From NCBI GenBank assembly GCA_017554335.1, contig JAFZIO010000037.1, forward strand, positions 1 to 55,557: a stretch of DNA of 55,557 nucleotides, read 5' to 3'. Below, piece after piece: positions 7,936 to 42,414 of this stretch (position 1 is the first letter of the stretch; each line of letters starts with the position of its first letter). Both the position numbers and the translations under genes were made by a program. This DNA is from Bacteroidales bacterium (lineage in GTDB: Bacteria; Bacteroidota; Bacteroidia; Bacteroidales; UBA932). Below the pieces are notes generated by a model, which saw nothing but the letters and a program-made list of their open reading frames with translations, had not been told where the DNA came from and made no database searches.

Positions 7936-7962
7936 GATTTAGCACGGAATTAAGCAAAACGT

Positions 7963-8046
7963 CGCCGGAGGTACACGCAAATGTACCTCCGGCGTCATTT
8001 TTGGCCTTTTTTGCTGCCGGAGGTCCAAGTGAATGTACCTCCGGCA
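7963..8046. repeat. Twin-hairpin repeat copy 1 (also secG terminator)
   Basis: Hairpin 1 (7963-7994) is a perfect 13-bp stem CGCCGGAGGTACA with a 6-nt loop; hairpin 2 (8015-8046) is a perfect 10-bp stem TGCCGGAGGT with a 12-nt loop. Between them lies a T-rich linker (7996-8016) that on the minus strand reads GCAAAAANGGCCAAAAATG. Hairpin plus T tract is a good Rho-independent terminator for secG. The linker recurs at 10291-10311 in opposite orientation with different stem sequences, which marks a repeat family. Confidence 0.85.
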
Positions 8047-8117
8047 ACACTTGCGCCCCTTATTTCTGCTTCACCAGGACGCCGTATTCATGATCAACAT
8101 CCCCCTGGTGTGTTCTC

Positions 8118-10256: not shown

Positions 10257-10347
10257 CTGTCGTCCGTCTGCTTTTTGATGGGTGGACGGACAGCAAAAAG
10301 GGCCAAAAATGTCGTCGGTCATCCCATCAAAAGGATGACCGACGACA
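10257..10347. repeat. Twin-hairpin repeat copy 2 (convergent terminator)
   Basis: Hairpin A (10262-10291) has a 7-bp stem GTCCGTC/GACGGAC with a longer bulged form from 10257 to 10293. Hairpin B (10310-10347) is a perfect 15-bp stem beginning TGTCGTCGG with an 8-nt loop. The linker 10291-10311 is identical to that of copy 1 at all but one position, but on the plus strand. The motif GATGGG(N)GACCGACGAC-like recurs in both arms of the unit. Read from the SGNH gene on the minus strand, hairpin B plus a T-rich tract is a terminator starting 3 bp after its stop codon. Confidence 0.85.
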
Positions 10348-10349
10348 CT

Positions 10350-11576
10350 TTATTCCCCCGCTACCTCTTCCGCCACCTTGCGCAGGGCGGCGGCGTCCTC
10401 GGGGCGGAGACCGCAGGAGGGGACGGGGCCGTTGAAGCGGGTACGGCCGGAAATGGTGAGCCAGGTCAGGCAGGCTTTGAGGTAGGAGCCGTGGATGCTC
10501 TGGTGCTTGTCGTCATTGTCCAGAAGGGGAATGTGGGGCACCTCGGCACGGGCTCTTGCAAAAGCGCGCCCGACCAGCGTGCGGTCGCAGGAAGCGGCTT
10601 CCGAAAGCGCCAGCGTACCTTCTTCCAGCCTCTGGCCGAATTCCTCCAGAGAGGCGAAGCCACCGTTGTCGAGTGCAGGGTAGGCCCAGGTGCTTTCTGC
10701 GTATATCTTGCAGGATGGATGCGACTTGCGGATACGCCCGCAGAGTTCGCAGAAGGCCTTCTTGACGTCGACCAGGCTGTCCGGAGCAGCGGCGAACTGC
10801 CCGGGCTCCTGGCTTTGGCCCTGAATGACGGCGAAATCGTAGTCTACAGGCATGTCGCACTGCATCCCGGTCATTTCCAGCCCGCAGTGCTGGCGGTAAG
10901 TCATTCCGCCCTTCAAGGATGCGTTGAGCTGAAGTATCCAACCCTGGGAGAAAGCTATCTCTTGAAGCATGAAAGCCTCTCCGAAATAATAGGTGAATGA
11001 GTTGCCGATAAGCAATATATGCTTCTCGGGGAAACCTTCTCCGGCTCCCAGGGGAATCAGTTTGGCGCCTACATACTTACGGTTCTTAAGCCCCACCCTG
11101 TTTTCCGGCTCATCCTGGCTCAGGAGGCTGCCGTTGGCGGCAAACGGGCTGCAGACGCGACAGCGGGCCTTCAGCGTATCGCGCACCTCACCTTTGAGCT
11201 TATAGACCGCCGTAAAAGTGGAAGGGTGCTTCACGGAAGAGCTGACGGTTCGGAAGGAGTAGTCGGACAGGCCGTCTTCGTAAATGAAAGAAGGGTCGCT
11301 GACCCACTCTCCGCCGTCGTAAAACTCCACTTTGTAGTGCAACGGAGCCTTCTCCCCGGCATTTTCCAGGCTCACGCAGAACTGGACATAAGAGCCTGCG
11401 GGCAAAGTGGATGACACGGGGGTGGCGAAGGTGAAGGCGTCTCCCTCAACCATACCGGTACGCTCAATGGGACGCTGTTTGCTCAGGAACCACAGGCCGT
11501 TACGGTTCTGGGCGGCTCCGCTGAAAAAGCAAACGGCGGCAAGCACCGCCGTAAGCATATAACGCATATATTTCAT
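10350..11576 (-). CDS. Exported SGNH-hydrolase-like (DUF4886) protein
   Basis: A 408-residue protein with an N-terminal signal peptide (cleavage near GAAQN). The second half carries the SGNH/GDSL-like layout of DUF4886: ILLIGNSFTYY with the nucleophile-type Ser (about residue 192), a central VIQGQSQEP block and a C-terminal DDKHQSIHGSYL block holding Asp and His. This suggests a periplasmic esterase or deacylase, substrate unknown. The first 170 residues form a beta-rich region I do not recognise. It is convergent with clpB and 9 bp downstream of the TlpA-like gene on the same strand, so likely cotranscribed. Confidence 0.75.
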   Translation of the reverse strand: MKYMRYMLTAVLAAVCFFSGAAQNRNGLWFLSKQRPIERTGMVEGDAFTFATPVSSTLPAGSYVQFCVSLENAGEKAPLHYKVEFYDGGEWVSDPSFIYEDGLSDYSFRTVSSSVKHPSTFTAVYKLKGEVRDTLKARCRVCSPFAANGSLLSQDEPENRVGLKNRKYVGAKLIPLGAGEGFPEKHILLIGNSFTYYFGEAFMLQEIAFSQGWILQLNASLKGGMTYRQHCGLEMTGMQCDMPVDYDFAVIQGQSQEPGQFAAAPDSLVDVKKAFCELCGRIRKSHPSCKIYAESTWAYPALDNGGFASLEEFGQRLEEGTLALSEAASCDRTLVGRAFARARAEVPHIPLLDNDDKHQSIHGSYLKACLTWLTISGRTRFNGPVPSCGLRPEDAAALRKVAEEVAGE

Positions 11577-18718: not shown

Positions 18719-21554
18719 ACTGTTTCCTGTATATCTCTATGTATTTCTGCAACTTGGCTGCGTCCTTGGCCTCCTGTTTCTGAATGGCCTTTAGGGCCTT
18801 GAGAGTCTTTGCGCGCTGTTTCTCCAGTTCCTTCTGCTTCTTGGCCTCAAGCTTCAGGGAATCCTGACGGTCGAGTTCCGCCCAGCGGGCCTCCCTGGCG
18901 GCGATGCGGGCGTCCCTTGCAGCAATGCGGAGCTTGCGGCGCAACTCCCTTTCTTCCTTGCGCTTCTGCTTGGGATCTATTGTGGGGATGGAAAGAGGAT
19001 CGATGTCTTCCTTGACGGAAACGGAATCCTTGGGGGCGGAAACGCCTCTCGCGACAACACTGTCGCGAACGGCAAGGGAATCACGTACCGCCAGGGAATC
19101 GCCTGCTGCCAGAGAGTCACGGACAAACAGTGAGTCGCGTACCAGCAGGGAGTCGCCCCTGACAGGCAAGACCAGGCTGTCCGGCGAGGCAAGGCTGTCT
19201 GCCGAGGGCAGTTCGATTTTCGGCTTGGGCAGCTTGGCCAGGGAGTCGCGGACGGCTATTTCCCTCAATATTCCGGGTATGTATCCGGGGAAGTATTTCG
19301 CAGTCTCACGGAACTCCGGCCTCGCCTTGGACTCATAGTAGCTGCGCTGGGAACTCCTTACCGTAAGCTTCGTTATGTCTTCCGGGCCTGCAGGCCTTTC
19401 TTCCGGACGCCAGCTGAAGCCCTTCATCTGACGCTCCGACTCGGGCATCTGCACCACGGGATACGCGTTGTTCTTCGGGTTCTCGAAGTAGTAAACGTGG
19501 TCTATGTCGCCGTCTTTCAGCAATCCGGAAAGCATCTTGCTCTCGACCTTGTTAACAGTGGCGAAAGCCTCGTTTTCACGGAGGTAGAATATTGCGGAAG
19601 AGCCACCCAGCGCATCGAAACGCTTGAGGGAGCTGTCCAGGCTGTCGAAGTACGCCAGAATTTCCGTACCCTTTATCTGGTCGTAGCTGACCTCGTCTTC
19701 CTGAATTACCACGAAGGCGTTCGACTGAAGGCTGGCCTTGCGCGGACCGCCACCGCCAACCAGGATAAAGAGGCTGTCGGCGGTATATTGACGCCTGCCG
19801 TCGTTCCACACGACGGGGTCCTTATAGAAGCGGGCAATGGAGTCGAGGTCGCAGTAAACCATTGAGTCGCAGCGCATCTGGATGTCGTCACGGAACACCC
19901 GGACGTTGCGTATGCCGTAGACGAAACCTATTTTGGTGGTGTCCAGCTGTACGGTATCCACAGCCACCGTATCAACCGCCAGCGTATCTTCTGCCGGCGG
20001 CAGTTCCCCGTCGACGGACAGAGGCGCAGCTGTGGCAAGACTGTCCGGCCTGGCAGTTCCGGCAGCAAGGCTGTCAATCGCAGCCAGGGCGTTGTTCAGC
20101 GGGGCCATCAGGCTGTCCTTCCGGGCCTGGGCGGCAGCGACGGAGTCCACCGGCGGCAAAACCACTCCGGAGGTGTCGGCAAGTGAGTCCACCGGCGGCA
20201 ACAATACTCCGGCGGTATCGGAAGGTGCCTCCACCGGCGGCAGTTCCACTCCGGAGGTGTCGGCAGGAGGTCCGGGGGAATCCTCCGGCGGCTGCGGCTT
20301 ATCGACGGGCGGCTGCGGCTTTTCGGCAGGCGGTCCGGCGGGGGCACCCTTACCTGGGGCTCCTTTACCCTCGTCAGCGCCTTCCGCTTTCTCGTCGGCG
20401 GGGGCCTCTTTAGTCTTCTTTGCAGGAGGACCGCCCTGCGGCTGGCTGGCTGCGGCGGCAGCGGCGGCGGCTTCTTCGGCCGCCTTCCGACGGTACTCGT
20501 TAACAGGGTCCGTCAATATATCGGCAAGGCGGTCTTCGCACGACTTAACCGTGCCGTCGGACAGGTCGCAACGGCGTATCGTCCTGTAAATCAGCGTGTC
20601 GGCGCCCATGTAAATGGTATCGCGCTTCTCGTCCTTGCCGGTCTCGAGCACGACGGCCGCGTTACGCTGGAGCTTCACCTGGGACAGGGTATCGTTGTAA
20701 TGGACGCGCTCGGCAACGGCCGTCACGTCCCTGCCGGGATCCTGCACCTGGGCGTGTCCCAACATCAGCAGGTCTCCGGAGCCGCGATAGAAATACAAAC
20801 TGTCGGACCAGGCCTCCTGCTCCTTGGACATCGCATGCACGTTACGCTCGAAGAAGACAGTTTCCCGTCCCTTGTCGTACCAGCCCTTCTCTGCAGAGAG
20901 CATGTTTCCGCCCTTCCAGAAGTCTATGAAAACCGGGAATTCGGCTTTGTCCTGCTCGGAATAATAGAACAGCTTGTTGGTTTTCACAAACATGGAGTCC
21001 GAAAACATGTTCACCTGGTCGTCGAAGATGAACATCTTGGCATCCGTGCTGTATTTTCCGGAAAGGCTTTCTATCACCTGGCCGTCCGCGTCCCTCATGG
21101 ACGCTCCGTTATAAAACACGGCCATGCTGTCCCTGGTGTTGTAATCCAGGAACTTGGTTCTGAGCAGGTTCTTTTTCTTGTTCTGGAGCTGGACCAGCGT
21201 ACCGCGGAACTGCGCCAGGTTGTCGTCGATCAGATAATCCAGCTTGTCGCTGGTCAGGACGGTCTCGTCCTGTATCACCTTTACGTGGCCGACGGCGTTG
21301 ATTACCTTCGTATCCACGTTCCACAGGGCCGTATCGCTAATCAGATATGTTCCGTTATGCAGGAATGTCGACGAGATGGCCTTGCGGTACTGCTGACCGT
21401 TTATCATCAGCTGTTCCAGGCTCTCCGCCTTCATCAGGCGCACCAGACTGTCCGCCTTTTCCTTCTTGGGAGGACGGGCGGAGGCGGGCTGCACGGCCAG
21501 AACGGCCGCCAGTACCAGCAGCAGCGTCAGTCGTTTGTGAACTTGGATTTCCAT
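18537..21554 (-). CDS. OstA/LptA-like periplasmic protein with proline-rich and DSL-repeat insertions
   Basis: Probable LPS-transport related protein: the N-terminal region after the signal peptide (cleavage near ASA) has the repeating beta pattern of OstA/LptA (ALWNVDTKVINAVGHVKVIQDETV-type, then YSEQDKAEF and HYNDTLSQVKLQRNAAVV), and a second such block follows around residues 570-720. The start is set at 21554, giving 1005 residues, far longer than usual. The extra length is low complexity: a Pro-rich 14-residue tandem repeat, a VRDSLA-type repeat and a Lys/Arg/Glu coiled coil. Its 3' end overlaps the OPT gene by 182 bp in another frame, and its 5' end overlaps the SurA-like gene by 28 bp. 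Confidence 0.8.
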   Translation of the reverse strand: MEIQVHKRLTLLLVLAAVLAVQPASARPPKKEKADSLVRLMKAESLEQLMINGQQYRKAISSTFLHNGTYLISDTALWNVDTKVINAVGHVKVIQDETVLTSDKLDYLIDDNLAQFRGTLVQLQNKKKNLLRTKFLDYNTRDSMAVFYNGASMRDADGQVIESLSGKYSTDAKMFIFDDQVNMFSDSMFVKTNKLFYYSEQDKAEFPVFIDFWKGGNMLSAEKGWYDKGRETVFFERNVHAMSKEQEAWSDSLYFYRGSGDLLMLGHAQVQDPGRDVTAVAERVHYNDTLSQVKLQRNAAVVLETGKDEKRDTIYMGADTLIYRTIRRCDLSDGTVKSCEDRLADILTDPVNEYRRKAAEEAAAAAAAASQPQGGPPAKKTKEAPADEKAEGADEGKGAPGKGAPAGPPAEKPQPPVDKPQPPEDSPGPPADTSGVELPPVEAPSDTAGVLLPPVDSLADTSGVVLPPVDSVAAAQARKDSLMAPLNNALAAIDSLAAGTARPDSLATAAPLSVDGELPPAEDTLAVDTVAVDTVQLDTTKIGFVYGIRNVRVFRDDIQMRCDSMVYCDLDSIARFYKDPVVWNDGRRQYTADSLFILVGGGGPRKASLQSNAFVVIQEDEVSYDQIKGTEILAYFDSLDSSLKRFDALGGSSAIFYLRENEAFATVNKVESKMLSGLLKDGDIDHVYYFENPKNNAYPVVQMPESERQMKGFSWRPEERPAGPEDITKLTVRSSQRSYYESKARPEFRETAKYFPGYIPGILREIAVRDSLAKLPKPKIELPSADSLASPDSLVLPVRGDSLLVRDSLFVRDSLAAGDSLAVRDSLAVRDSVVARGVSAPKDSVSVKEDIDPLSIPTIDPKQKRKEERELRRKLRIAARDARIAAREARWAELDRQDSLKLEAKKQKELEKQRAKTLKALKAIQKQEAKDAAKLQKYIEIYRKQYEREQKRKAARERSQATGGGGEIPAPPESGEQAPGGDAILGDDGPVDDDSVLSGRRLPGT
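19056..19165. repeat. 18-bp tandem repeat encoding VRDSLA units
   Basis: Within the OstA-like gene, about six degenerate 18-bp units encode (V/A)(R/G)DSL(A/F/V) hexapeptides. This is a coding, variable-number type repeat and a likely site of slippage. Confidence 0.7.
20143..20268. repeat. 42-bp tandem repeat in the proline-rich region
   Basis: Three successive 42-bp units (starting near 20143, 20185 and 20227) encode 14-residue repeats of the form LPPVDSLADTSGVV within the OstA-like protein. Units share the CCACCGGCGGC core and differ at scattered positions. Confidence 0.7.
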
Positions 21555-23998: not shown

Positions 23999-24928
23999 TC
24001 AGCGGCCTTTGAGCTTCTGGCGGCGGGTTTCCGCAGTGTCGCGGCCGAACAGCGTCCGGTGGCCCTCGACGCTGCGCCAAAAGTCGGGATCGAAATCGGC
24101 CGGGCTGACGTAGGCGCTGGCGGAGGGTGCAGCTTCTGCAGACCGTGGCCGCCCATGGCCGCGTGAATGGGAGGGGCCCGCCGCTTCAGCGGTGGGAGGG
24201 ATGAGCGAAGCGAAGTCTGACGAAGCAGCACCCTCCGCCGCCTTCGTCAGCCGGAAGCAGAGATAGCGGATCGGGTAACCCTGCTCGCGGAACATGGATT
24301 CGTAGAAGGTCTGGACCTCGGTGAGGGCGGGGGCGAAACGGTCGGCTTCGGCGTAAAGGTCTTCGGAGGCGGCCAGGACAGGGAAGTTGTTGGCCCTGCA
24401 GACGGCCAGGGTATACTGGTACAGGAACTGCGAATCGGTCTTCAGGTGTATGAGGCCGCCGGGGGCAAGGAAACGGGAATACCGCTCCAGAAACACCGGC
24501 GAAGTGAGGCGGGAGTTCTCGCTCTTGACCTGCGGGTCGGAGAAGGTAAGCCATATTTCCGACACCTCACCGGGGGCGAAGAAAGCGGAAATGAACTCGA
24601 TGCGGGTGCGAAGGAAGCCGACGTTGCCCAGGTTGTGCTGGGTGGCATATTTCGCCCCTTTCCACAACCGCGCCCCCTTGATATCGACGCCCACATAATT
24701 CTTCGACGGGTCCCGCTGCGCAAGGTCTATCGTGTACTCCCCCTTTCCGCAGCCGAGCTCCAGCACCAGCGGCGCCTCAGGGTCCGCAAAACGCTCGCCC
24801 CAATGGCCCTTCACTTCATGATCGCGCAAGGCGAAATAGCCGTCGCGCAACAGCTCCTCCGCCGACGGCTGCAGCAGGCAGGCGAACGTCTCGTTCTCCG
24901 CGAACTTACGTAGCTTGTCGTGCCCCAT
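23999..24928 (-). CDS. trmB: tRNA (guanine-N7)-methyltransferase carrying an in-frame palindromic insertion
   Basis: SAM-dependent enzyme that methylates G46 of tRNA. The 309-residue product has the SAM motif LVLELGCGKGEYT (about 54-66), VGVDIKGARLWKGA, WLTFSDPQVK and the substrate-binding TEVQTFYESMF, so the catalytic domain is intact. Residues about 230-270 are a low-complexity segment (SDFASLIPPTAEAAGPSHS) encoded by a 121-bp palindromic repeat related to one in the YfhO-like gene. After it a normal-looking tail resumes (DPDFWRSVEGHRTLFGRDT). It starts 3 bp after the FAD oxidoreductase stop, so is probably coexpressed with it. Confidence 0.92.
   Translation of the reverse strand: MGHDKLRKFAENETFACLLQPSAEELLRDGYFALRDHEVKGHWGERFADPEAPLVLELGCGKGEYTIDLAQRDPSKNYVGVDIKGARLWKGAKYATQHNLGNVGFLRTRIEFISAFFAPGEVSEIWLTFSDPQVKSENSRLTSPVFLERYSRFLAPGGLIHLKTDSQFLYQYTLAVCRANNFPVLAASEDLYAEADRFAPALTEVQTFYESMFREQGYPIRYLCFRLTKAAEGAASSDFASLIPPTAEAAGPSHSRGHGRPRSAEAAPSASAYVSPADFDPDFWRSVEGHRTLFGRDTAETRRQKLKGR
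24119..24239. repeat. In-frame palindromic element, copy 1 (in trmB)
   Basis: Outer arms 24119-24136 and 24222-24239 pair at 17 of 18 positions. Inside are conserved blocks GGGAGGGGCCC (24169-24179) and GGGAGGGATGAGCG (24194-24207), which flank an 8-bp stem with loop TTCA (24177-24184 with 24189-24196). A second small hairpin CCGTGG/CCATGG lies to the left. Both blocks recur in order and orientation at 41252-41288. It is open in the trmB frame and adds about 40 residues. Confidence 0.85.
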
Positions 24929-39301: not shown

Positions 39302-41827
39302 CTACCTCGCCTTTGCGGCGGCAAAGTAACCCGCTGCGGAGCCAAGTACCAGCAGAATCAAAAGGATGGAGCAGGCGCGGGAGATTGCCTCTCCGCGCGA
39401 ATAGGACTTGGGCTCGAAGCTCATGGTGAGGTGATGCTCACCGGCGGGAAGGTCGATGCAGCGCAGCACGCCTCCTGCCACCGGGCCAAGCTCGTCAGAA
39501 CCTCCGCCGTAAAGCTCAACCGGCAACTCAGTGCCGTCTTCCAGGCGCGCCACCCATCCGGCAGGATAGTAGACCTCGCTGAAAACAGCCAGTCCGCCCT
39601 CGGCGCTGGAGTAGCTGTACTCCAGTTTGTCGGGGGTGTAAACATCGAGAGTAATGTCTCCGGCGGCCTGGTTCTCAAACCAGGCATTGCCTCTGGCGTA
39701 CTTGTATGCCAGAGGCGGATTGTCCTCACCTACAATAATATACCGGCAGTTGAGCGACGCCAGGCTCTCCAGATACGGCAGAAGGTCCTCGGCCTCACCG
39801 ACCGTCGCAGCTCCGGAAATCGCCCTGGAGAGGCGGGAGATGTCGGGAACGATGCGGGCGTCGATGTACTCCTGGTAACGCTGCAGCTTGGCTGGTGAGT
39901 AGCCGCCTATGTTCTTGTGCCAGTAGGACGGGTGCGAGTCGTTGAAAACGTTGACGGTAAGGTCGAGCACACGGTACGACGGATCCTTGTCGGCCAGTAT
40001 CATCTCATCCACCGGGCGCTTGTCGAACTGGCTCTGGAAGGCCTTTGGGCTCACGAAATCGTCCGGCCCGAGGTAGCGCTTGCCTATAAGGAACAGGTCT
40101 GCCAACACCAGCACGCCCACCAGCACCGCTCCGACCATCCTACGGCCGCCAGCGACTTGCGCCCCAGCGCCCCAGACCAATACAAGCGCCGCTGCTGCCA
40201 CCAGCAGCATCGAGCGCAGCGTATCCGCCCACAGGAGGTGGTAGCGGTCGGCGGCAAGAGCGTTCGTCAGAATTTCCGGCTGACCGGCGTCGGCGGCTCC
40301 CGTAAAGCTGCCGAACATGCTCTGAAGGAGCGCCAGAAGGAGCAACAGGCCGAGGGATACGCCCCCGGAAATCAGCACCTTGCGCCTGAGGACCTTGGAT
40401 CCGGAGGCGTCCCGCACGATGCCGTCCAGCATAAGGAAACCCAGCACCGGCAGGGTAAACTGCAGCACCACGAGGGCCATGGAGACCGTCCTGAACTTAT
40501 TGTACAGCGGCACCCAGTCGTAGAACAGCTTGGTGAACCACAGGAAGTGGCTGCCGAGGGCGAGCAGCACCGCCAGCAGCGACGCAATTACCGCCCACCA
40601 GCATTCGCGCCCCTTGAACCAGCAGAGTCCGAGGATGAAGAGAAAGATGGTAACGGCACCCATGTACATTGGTCCGGCGGTGAAGGGCTGGGGACCCCAG
40701 TACGTCGGCAGGTGCTTGCTGACCTGTTTGAGGTTTGTCTGGCCGGCGCGCTTGAGGAGCTGTACGGTCTCGGAGTCCATGCCGAGGGGGCCGGAGGACG
40801 CTCCGCCGTTGTAGTTGGGGATTGCGAGGTTGGGGAGTTCTTCCCAGCCGTAAGACCATGCTGTGGCGTAGTCGATGTCGAGGCCCTTGCGGGCGCCTCC
40901 GTCGTCAGCAGACTTGGCGGTAGTGCCGCCGCGCATGGAGTAGGGTGTATATTCCCAGGTGGGCAGGAGCTTGATGGCGTTGGTGCCTATGCCGGCAAGG
41001 CCGGTGGCCAGCAGAAGCGCCGAGGCCACCCAGAAGCCCTTGAGCGACTGTTTCCGCTTCAGCAGCGACACCAGCAGCACGGCCACATAGATTATTATCA
41101 TTATCGCCAGATAGTACGATATTTGAGGATGGTTGGCTTTGATCTGGAAGCTCAACGCCAGTCCGAATAGCGCGGCCCCCAGAAGTATCGCGGGCCACCG
41201 GAGGGAGGGCTTGTAATCCCGGGAACCGTGTCCACCCTCGGACACGTTAGAGGGAGGGGCCCAGCCGCCAGGCTGGGAGGGATGAGCGCGTAGCGCGAAG
41301 TTCTCCGGGTTGCAAGCCCTCCCTCCGCTGGCTACGCGATACGTGTACACTATGGCGGCCAGAACCCACGGGGCGAAGGCCAGGGCCTGCATCTTGGTGT
41401 TGTGGCCCACCTGGATAATCTGGATGTTGTACGAACAGAAAGTGACCGCAATGGCGCCGAAGGCGGCAATCAGAGGGTTAACGCCGAAGGCCAATAACAG
41501 CAGGAAGGCGCCCAGCAGGGAAATGAACAAATAAGTCGCCGGACGCTTGCCGATAAGCAAGAAGTCGTAAATCTTCTGCGTCCAGTCGCCCTTCGTCGAT
41601 GCCTGGATAGTGGTCGTAGGCATGCCGGAGAACATGGAACCGGTCCATGCGGCCGGATCGCCGGGATGAGCCCTGTCCCACTCCAGCTTTTCGTGCGACA
41701 TGCCCTGCCAGCCGGAGATATCGCTCTGGTTTACAATCTTACCCTCAAGCAACTGAGGCACAAAAGCATAGGACAGCACCAGAAAACCCAGCACTATCCC
41801 CAGACATATCAGCAAATTCTTCTTCAT
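39302..41827 (-). CDS. YfhO-family membrane protein carrying an in-frame palindromic insertion
   Basis: An 841-residue multi-pass protein (about 12-14 helices) of the YfhO family, GT-C-like membrane proteins linked to glycosylation of envelope polymers. Start at 41827 (MKKNLLICLG). Typical blocks are GWQGMSHEKLEWDRAHPG, SMFSGMPTTTI, VGHNTKMQALAFAPWVLAAIVYTYR and LSFQIKANHPQISYYLAI. Residues about 167-209 between the last two are a Gly/Pro-rich stretch (NPENFALRAHPSQPGGWAPP) encoded by a 127-bp palindrome related to the one in trmB. The C-terminal periplasmic part ends in EHHLTMSFEPKSY and a final helix. Confidence 0.88.
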   Translation of the reverse strand: MKKNLLICLGIVLGFLVLSYAFVPQLLEGKIVNQSDISGWQGMSHEKLEWDRAHPGDPAAWTGSMFSGMPTTTIQASTKGDWTQKIYDFLLIGKRPATYLFISLLGAFLLLLAFGVNPLIAAFGAIAVTFCSYNIQIIQVGHNTKMQALAFAPWVLAAIVYTYRVASGGRACNPENFALRAHPSQPGGWAPPSNVSEGGHGSRDYKPSLRWPAILLGAALFGLALSFQIKANHPQISYYLAIMIIIYVAVLLVSLLKRKQSLKGFWVASALLLATGLAGIGTNAIKLLPTWEYTPYSMRGGTTAKSADDGGARKGLDIDYATAWSYGWEELPNLAIPNYNGGASSGPLGMDSETVQLLKRAGQTNLKQVSKHLPTYWGPQPFTAGPMYMGAVTIFLFILGLCWFKGRECWWAVIASLLAVLLALGSHFLWFTKLFYDWVPLYNKFRTVSMALVVLQFTLPVLGFLMLDGIVRDASGSKVLRRKVLISGGVSLGLLLLLALLQSMFGSFTGAADAGQPEILTNALAADRYHLLWADTLRSMLLVAAAALVLVWGAGAQVAGGRRMVGAVLVGVLVLADLFLIGKRYLGPDDFVSPKAFQSQFDKRPVDEMILADKDPSYRVLDLTVNVFNDSHPSYWHKNIGGYSPAKLQRYQEYIDARIVPDISRLSRAISGAATVGEAEDLLPYLESLASLNCRYIIVGEDNPPLAYKYARGNAWFENQAAGDITLDVYTPDKLEYSYSSAEGGLAVFSEVYYPAGWVARLEDGTELPVELYGGGSDELGPVAGGVLRCIDLPAGEHHLTMSFEPKSYSRGEAISRACSILLILLVLGSAAGYFAAAKAR
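41200..41326. repeat. In-frame palindromic element, copy 2 (in YfhO-like gene)
   Basis: Outer arms GGAGGGAGGGCTTG (41200-41213) and its perfect complement (41313-41326) pair over 14 bp and extend inward imperfectly. Inside are CGTGTCC/GGACACG (41227-41246), block GGGAGGGGCCC (41252-41262), a 7-bp stem CCCAGCC/GGCTGGG with loop GCCA, block GGGAGGGATGAGCG (41275-41288) and a CGCG-TAG-CGCG hairpin. Blocks, order and strand match the copy in trmB; stems differ but still pair. It is open in the host frame. Confidence 0.85.
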
Positions 41828-42414
41828 CACTGTAAAAACTGTTCCGCCCAATCCCTGTCGACACGCACCAGGCCCTTCAGGCCTTCGGTAATCGCAGGAT
41901 TGCGGCCCACGATGGCCCGGCAGTCCTCATAAACATTGAATCCCACCGCCAGCATCTGCATCTGGCCGCCCTCGGGATAAGTAAAAATGATATCGTTGTC
42001 CGCACCGTCCACCTTCAGGAACTTCAGGTCCACATCCTTGCCCAGCTCCTGACGGGTGACGAACTTGCAGAATTCCATAGGTACGTCGTCCAGCCCGGCA
42101 TCGAAAATCTTCACCTTCTCTATAAGAGAGCCCACATCCGACACCAGACGGCCGGTAACGCCTTCCAGGCCCTCCACGGCTATGCTCCTGTCTGACAGGC
42201 AGGCCAGCAGATGCTCGTCGCGGTAAATCACGGGCGAGGTAATCAGGCTCTTGAAGCCGCAAGCCGGACAGGTAAAGACAAAAAGCTCCCCGCTAAGCAC
42301 CTTTGCCTTGAGCTCAGGTTCGGCAACGGCATCTATGTGCCTGTAAACCTGCTGCACGGACTCGTTGCCGCAACGGGAGCAGCGCATGGGAACTGAAGTG
42401 AAGACTGAACTCAT
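41827..42414 (-). CDS. CpXC-domain zinc-ribbon protein
   Basis: A 195-residue cytosolic protein. The N-terminal third has two knuckles, MRCSRCGNE and FTCPACGFKS, forming the CpXC domain (one knuckle has Ser in place of Pro), followed by VIYRDEHLLACLSD. The rest is a variable alpha/beta region. The family is of unknown function. It overlaps both neighbours by 1-4 bp, so it is expressed with the glycosyltransferase and the YfhO-like protein. Confidence 0.8.
   Translation of the reverse strand: MSSVFTSVPMRCSRCGNESVQQVYRHIDAVAEPELKAKVLSGELFVFTCPACGFKSLITSPVIYRDEHLLACLSDRSIAVEGLEGVTGRLVSDVGSLIEKVKIFDAGLDDVPMEFCKFVTRQELGKDVDLKFLKVDGADNDIIFTYPEGGQMQMLAVGFNVYEDCRAIVGRNPAITEGLKGLVRVDRDWAEQFLQ

Follow-up and report, generated by a model that had tools for sequence, protein, structure and literature searches.

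We found a dispersed family of palindromic sequences in Bacteroidales that is best explained, with a probability of about 0.57, as a non-autonomous, multi-copy mobile element whose arms are probably rewritten by template switching. Its core fold, which consists of a helix P2 with a pseudoknot, the helices P3 and P4 and a closing stem P1, forms on one defined strand and is conserved across several families of the order, in elements of about 100-180 bp that are typically roughly 150 bp long. The window, by which we mean the whole stretch of 55,557 nucleotides that was analysed, contains two copies, one inside trmB and one inside a membrane-protein gene, with the following features (the basis for each is given in brackets):

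23999..24928, minus strand: trmB open frame, with about 40 codons added (open reading frame, orthologue comparison, NCBIfam)
24103..24252, plus strand (element orientation), antisense to trmB: copy 1, the full palindrome within trmB (arm pairing, fold)
24129-24231, plus strand: covariance-model match of copy 1, 104.8 bits
24119..24143, plus strand: left arm of copy 1, 5′ strand of the private stem P1 (fold)
24144..24163, plus strand: helix P2 of copy 1, hairpin CGTGGCC/GGCCGCG (alignment, fold)
24152-24156, plus strand: 5′ strand of the pseudoknot of copy 1, the P2 loop CCCAT (alignment, fold)
24167..24171, plus strand: 3′ strand of the pseudoknot of copy 1, ATGGG (covariation)
24177..24196, plus strand: helix P3 of copy 1, CCCGCCGC/GCGGTGGG, a variable hairpin separating two G-rich blocks (covariation, fold)
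24194..24214, plus strand: conserved block GGGAGGGATGA of copy 1, then the mini-hairpin P4 (GC GAA GC) and GAA (alignment)
24215..24239, plus strand: right arm of copy 1, 3′ strand of the private stem P1 (fold)
39302..41851, minus strand: host frame of copy 2, a weakly YfhO-like membrane protein (open reading frame, Pfam)
41193..41333, plus strand, antisense to the host gene: copy 2, the full palindrome within the membrane-protein gene (arm pairing, fold)
41212-41316, plus strand: covariance-model match of copy 2, 83.8 bits

Two copies in the window

Copy 1 had originally been predicted as a 121-bp palindrome with outer arms of 17/18 bp. The palindrome is real, with the arms GGCGGAGGGTGC / GCACCCTCCGCC at 24119-24130 and 24228-24239, but its extent is larger: beyond an internal loop the pairing resumes (GGCTGACG / CGTCAGCC), and we therefore place the element at 24103-24252, that is 150 bp. 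The plus strand of 24104-24252 folds at -91.6 kcal/mol (z -6.2, with 0/200 shuffles equally stable), and the fold of 41190-41336, around copy 2, reaches -94.5 kcal/mol (z -6.1). The host frame of copy 1 encodes TrmB, with NCBIfam NF001080 matching over residues 2-228, and the element accounts for residues ~234-268, in the C-terminal tail just past this domain. With 310 codons in this frame against 270 in an empty orthologue, the predicted in-frame addition of some 40 residues after the catalytic domain is borne out.

Two sequence blocks had been proposed to be common to palindromes in trmB and in a YfhO-like gene. Both are exact in the two copies, a 14-mer at 24194 and 41275 and an 11-mer at 24169 and 41252, but the YfhO likeness of the second host is weak (PF09586 at E = 0.63, below the cut-off; an NCBIfam search of this protein gave zero matches). 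As was also predicted, the two copies are read in different frames, each of which is open. Mismatch-tolerant scans of the window with the 14-mer and the 11-mer do no better than chance (5 sites vs 8.6 expected and 3 vs 2.3, respectively). In the whole genome, the exact 14-mer occurs 25 times against 0 for a reversed control, so that this block is found well beyond the window.

Other repeats were also seen in the window. Short REP-like palindromes at 7956-8067 and 10306-10351 (AAAACGTCGCCGGAGG..., AAAATGTCGTCGG...) resemble, by eye, those adjoining the Y1 transposase genes of relatives, and a 36-nt unit stands in three tandem copies at 42-nt spacing within a large open frame (20146-20265).

A conserved core between changing arms

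On the plus strand, the element reads in the order private P1, P2, pseudoknot strand, GGGG, P3, AGGGATGA, P4, GAA and the return strand of P1. The P2 loop CCCNN pairs with NNGGG, three bases 3′ of P2, which creates the pseudoknot, and P3 is a hairpin variable in both length and sequence. The core measures about 75 nt, and its unpaired nucleotides rank among the most conserved. We built the covariance model from an alignment of 36 copies (A1), leaving out 10 of the first 46 loci (half copies, extended or nested copies and two others); the set A3 overlaps A1 in some genomes. In A1, standard pairs fill 91.7% of the cells and double changes occur in 15 pairs. None of 500 shuffles was as high on four of the five measures, 44/500 were on the fifth, and sliding by 1-3 columns leaves a pairing of 30-52%. 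P4 continues past its first two pairs only in the five rows having the longer form.

The pseudoknot was left out of the covariance model that aligned further copies. At the two variable pairs of the pseudoknot, the bases are Watson-Crick partners in 85 and 84 of 87 usable rows, in 43 and 43 of 44 and, for the set with remote hits, in 46 and 46 of 52, after 4/91, 1/45 and 7/59 rows with odd loop lengths or without an anchor had been dropped. Minimum-energy folding of the plus strand gives the same four helices in both window copies; on the complementary strand the core of the trmB copy folds otherwise, and copy 2 yields the same helices mirrored. In some copies, extra hairpin domains sit within P3 or separate P2 from the pseudoknot strand, and a genus from the source genome's own family carries a shorter form that lacks P4. 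In two copies (L004, L038), the domain added between P2 and the pseudoknot strand is itself like a small pseudoknot. Taken together, these data make selection on structure more convincing in the core than in the arms.

Among the 171 copies having enough flank, the arms pair (score 24 or more) in 158. The arm score has a median of 44 within a copy against 12 across about 400 random pairings of trimmed arms, and some subfamilies share arms between copies. At orthologous sites the arms change together, for example in ksgA (L037 vs L183) and in a phosphatase gene (source genome vs L253). After removal of 7 same-locus pairs, 24 of 66 orthologous pairs were kept for arm homology; in these, double changes are compensatory in 41 cases and non-compensatory in 20, against about one to two by chance, in counts that are non-independent because loci recur among the pairs. 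The arms also decay, with 135 one-sided changes (21 G·T, 27 A·C and 87 other mismatches) against 61 two-sided ones. If a folded strand were under selection, an excess of G·T on that strand would be expected, which is not seen in these one-sided changes (21 vs 27). Furthermore, the core can flip between its arms: the trmB inserts of G023 and G063 have common arms and opposite cores, their alignment score rising from 38 to 118 after one core is inverted, and cores are in opposite orientation in 26 of the 66 orthologous pairs and in 6 of the 24 with homologous arms.

Paired arm change, no G·T excess and core flips together form a signature of template switching in replication, a process described as homogenising arms and inverting the spacer (PMC8604942; PMC8794818). 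In trmB, folC and ksgA, one side of the palindrome seems by eye to enter the native flank, as is expected if copying extends the arms. The covariation of the arms had originally been read as selection on folding. The paired changes in place (41 vs 20) agree with that reading, but the lack of a G·T excess and the flipped cores do not, and template switching of DNA explains the covariation at least as well; the in-place rewriting of the arms seems to owe as much to DNA copying as to selection.

A second hairpin family, with a conserved loop like TTTTCCCAAAGTATTTT and long private arms, was seen in three copies (L040 1375, L168 991 and L213, minus strand) in the 1.57 Mb of sequence examined.

Distribution, occupied sites and host genes

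With E limited to at most 0.001, the covariance model has 43 matches in the source genome, scoring down to 26 bits, and across the genus it matches 51 of 61 genomes (source genome counted), with up to 50 matches per genome. Outside the genus, the few matches fall in four other genera of the order. Scans that scored few candidates per genome, and whose counts are thus lower bounds, matched 6 of 393 genomes order-wide (the source, one weak match in the same genus, another genus of the family and one genus each from three other families) and, with a second model, 2 of 395 phylum-wide, namely the source and a doubtful one (G619). The latter, the sole phylum match beyond the order, scores 27 bits and on inspection looks like chance. 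A scan of named genomes returned at least 80 records; among the matches listed, all are Bacteroidales, Bacteroidaceae, Bacteroidia or Candidatus Cacconaster, many being from ruminants and two from horse faeces. The carrier genus may, we assume, be the GTDB genus Cryptobacteroides. Phage carriage was looked for in IMG/VR by exact pattern only, with zero matches, and a search of the open-licence PMC literature found nothing on the element. In a genome of another family (G238), two arm-sharing subfamilies occur as inverted pairs 33-106 bp apart (L106, L111, L115, L125), in the order minus then plus in 4/4.

Occupancy differs between close relatives. In the closest relative found, G043, whose TrmB is 97% identical, the insertion is absent from the TrmB alignment and the trmB site is empty; this genome has a copy in a gene read as ksgA (contig C81, record L165, with identical coordinates), where the source genome has none. 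Empty sites were found for trmB, ksgA and folC, the last in L180. Among the six most similar TrmB genes, those of G000, G023 and G063 have a tail copy, the arms in G023 and G063 being other than those of the source genome, and those of G043, G064 and G004 have none. This comparison, made within the genus, bears on the alternative of an ancestral TrmB feature, and the insertion may be an older one with losses. Sites are variably occupied among close species in general, and several are common to several species and could hold old residents.

Copies sometimes stand in inverted pairs, two species differ by the inversion of a ~4.5-kb segment with a copy at each end, and half of an element is apparently replaced between L165 and L013. 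Taken together with presence and absence, these observations point to past movement and recombination within the family; that the element is mobile is suggested by presence and absence in the compared sequences. At the empty sites no target-site duplication was defined, the flanks being too diverged to fix the ends.

At the trmB loci L127-L156, the TrmB match of many species is split near residue 49 or 197 by in-frame insertions of more than 60 bp, and G004 (trmB tail) and G006 (near 197) have what by eye resembles another repeat. In L119 (1-210), a stretch resembling the end of a transposase gene, of IS3 type by eye, adjoins a broken element copy, as if an IS had landed inside.

In the source genome, 21 of the 43 matches fall within a long open frame that has a Pfam hit, the YfhO-like host of copy 2 being additional, and copies also occur in stretches without a long open frame. 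By Pfam, the hosts of the 21 are dnaX, polA, uvrA, uvrD/pcrA, trmB, a SpoU methylase, a THUMP-like protein, atpG, fmt, prmC, folC, aroB (two copies), a relative of AIR synthase, a PP-loop protein (presumably tilS-like), a radical SAM protein, a relative of UDP-glucose dehydrogenase, a histidine phosphatase, a nucleotidyl transferase, a penicillin-binding protein and a TonB receptor, with the element near the start of the gene in the last. Domain matches flank or span the element in ten of the 21 (atpG, fmt, SpoU, UDP-glucose dehydrogenase, prmC, uvrD, uvrA, the nucleotidyl transferase, polA and the penicillin-binding protein). aroB and the PP-loop protein have a single domain stretch among the matches listed, and the second stretch of the AIR synthase relative is below the cut-off. 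In one aroB open frame (L326 1487-1801, contig C23 of the source genome), two copies lie in opposite orientation.

The genic copies of this genome are antisense to their host in 16 of 21 cases and sense in 5, an excess that fits the TGA or TAG triplets in the sense consensus, which would end many sense frames. Two antisense-frame peptides recur by eye, and both orientations and more than one frame are in use. We take the inserted peptides to be tolerated passengers.

Possible origins and relation to known systems

Under the mobile-element reading, the folded strand, as single-stranded DNA or RNA, would be recognised by a trans-acting enzyme for copying or insertion, and survival would be limited to insertions that leave the reading frame intact and fall in a loop or linker. 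Afterwards, template switching between the arms may homogenise, extend and rewrite the long stem, and may also flip the core and give each copy its private arms, in accordance with the patterns observed. Recombination between copies also occurs, and gene conversion may keep the core alike. It is a bolder and rather unlikely idea that the core, as a structured RNA or single strand of DNA belonging to no described class, directs its own spread through a host or borrowed enzyme and keeps adding peptides, genus-wide, to housekeeping proteins such as DnaX, AtpG and PolA.

Among the genes common to element flanks at 181 loci (of the 25 largest clusters, those in at least 4 loci), no mobile-type gene was recognised, which counts against the mobile-element reading and against a gene carried along with the element. 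A reverse transcriptase as helper was rejected, since RVT_1 is present in 19 of 61 genomes, missing from several copy-rich ones and present in one that is element-free.

As a tentative possibility, a specific form of the mobile-element reading would have a Y1 (HUH) REP-associated transposase act in trans on the element as its REP-like single-stranded DNA substrate. Y1_Tnp is present in 45 of 51 genomes with the element against 1 of 10 without (Fisher p 2.6e-6; 19/22 vs 0/3 among genomes at least 90% complete), a pattern that the control RVT_1 does not have, and element copies at times form inverted pairs, as REPs do (PMC3733652). However, Y1 was undetected in six element-bearing genomes, including G001, G013 and G014 with 12-15 matches, and of the 40 Y1 loci examined, out of about 140, only 2 have strong element matches (E below 1e-5), which by estimate is around the level expected from copy density. 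Furthermore, by eye, several of 21 Y1 genes inspected adjoin other palindromes, and the Y1 proteins seen in copy-rich genomes differ in type. A functional non-coding RNA family, a regulator or ribozyme-like, selected at each site and with its stem formed as plus-strand RNA, would explain why unpaired core nucleotides are so conserved and why the plus strand of both window copies folds to the consensus. Strand bias in the core points the same way at P3 pair 54-69 (G·T 78, A·C 0) and in P2 (28 to 9). The pooled core bias (135 G·T to 43 A·C) does not establish an RNA function, as most of it comes from P3 54-69, without which the core is near balance (50 to 42). Pooled arms likewise have more G·T than A·C (146 to 101, p 0.005, in 154 copies with an arm score of 24 or more; 152 to 89 in another count), which favours strand-level selection somewhere. 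Split by location, the excess is 68 to 59 in genic copies, 49 to 26 in copies without a long open frame and 29 to 16 in unclear ones, so that the strand effect remains in the non-genic copies, but in genic arms, as in the one-sided changes at orthologous sites (21 to 27), there is no strand preference. With 16 of the 21 genic copies antisense, a plus-strand RNA would require its own promoter; the mirrored helices on the complementary strand of copy 2, the differing occupancy in close species and Rfam (the window at gathering score and 10 loci at E up to 5, none matched on the element) count against this reading too, and we regard it as improbable.

Two further readings have a very low probability. 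Ordinary quasi-palindromes, grown by template switching and sharing a core by chance with no mobile element involved, would have arms behaving just as observed, but a pseudoknotted core at about 40 places in the genome and in several families is beyond local copying, and empty sites exist; we consider this barely credible. Nearly as implausible is an insertion of the core into hairpin loops already present in the DNA, which would account for the private arms. A few coreless palindromes do occur (G064 trmB tail; L168, L179), but those of L168 and L179 have a different conserved loop, and by eye the empty sites (G043 trmB, L180 folC) have no such hairpin. Moreover, 276 kb of trmB and Y1 loci contain 7 palindromes at threshold, 1 with the core and six REP-like or long-looped by eye.

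Palindromes in frame in housekeeping genes are best known from Rickettsia, and Bacteroidales adds an unrelated case with a far more elaborate conserved core and with before-and-after sites in close species. The same stem at the same gene position across species provides a natural test of the origin of compensatory changes, with the warning that covariation in a long stem need not mean selection on RNA. As hosts, the clamp loader, the ATP synthase gamma subunit and DNA polymerase I make insertion tolerance directly testable.

The likeness in concept to Rickettsia palindromic elements, which the original prediction had pointed out, holds for a dispersed palindrome that is in frame in trmB and whose site is empty in the closest relative found. 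As described, those are palindromes of about 150 bp, with many copies, in frame in unrelated protein genes and elsewhere (PMC10969869); compared by description, the present family corresponds to them in size and in its range of genes (43 matches, 21 of them genic) and in having an in-frame insertion opposite an empty orthologous site (trmB, 310 vs 270 codons, empty in G043). It differs in belonging to another phylum, in its core with a pseudoknot and four helices, in arms private to each copy and in using both orientations and more than one frame, seemingly with no single conserved peptide. The Rickettsia elements are described as having an open frame with a conserved peptide (PMC10969869). 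With REPs and their transposases it shares dispersed palindromes, inverted pairs and Y1 transposases in the same genomes, and some REPs, which also form inverted pairs, are described within coding regions (PMC3733652). In contrast, REPs are 20-40 bp with GTAG or CGTC tags, while the element is ~100-180 bp, has no shared end motif by eye in the aligned copies and does not flank Y1 genes (2/40 loci with strong matches). MITEs are similarly short, non-autonomous and multi-copy with inverted repeats at their ends; their ends are common to the copies, whereas here the ends vary between copies (12 vs 44 within a copy) and the middle is shared. Coding palindromes of Nematomorpha mitochondria are likewise long inverted repeats kept in translated genes, in an account that describes no shared core or mobile family (PMC6649704). 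Finally, the homogenised arms and inverted spacers resemble those of template switching (PMC8604942; PMC8794818), which those accounts treat as a mutational process of yeast genes and RNA genes and which here would act on a dispersed element family.
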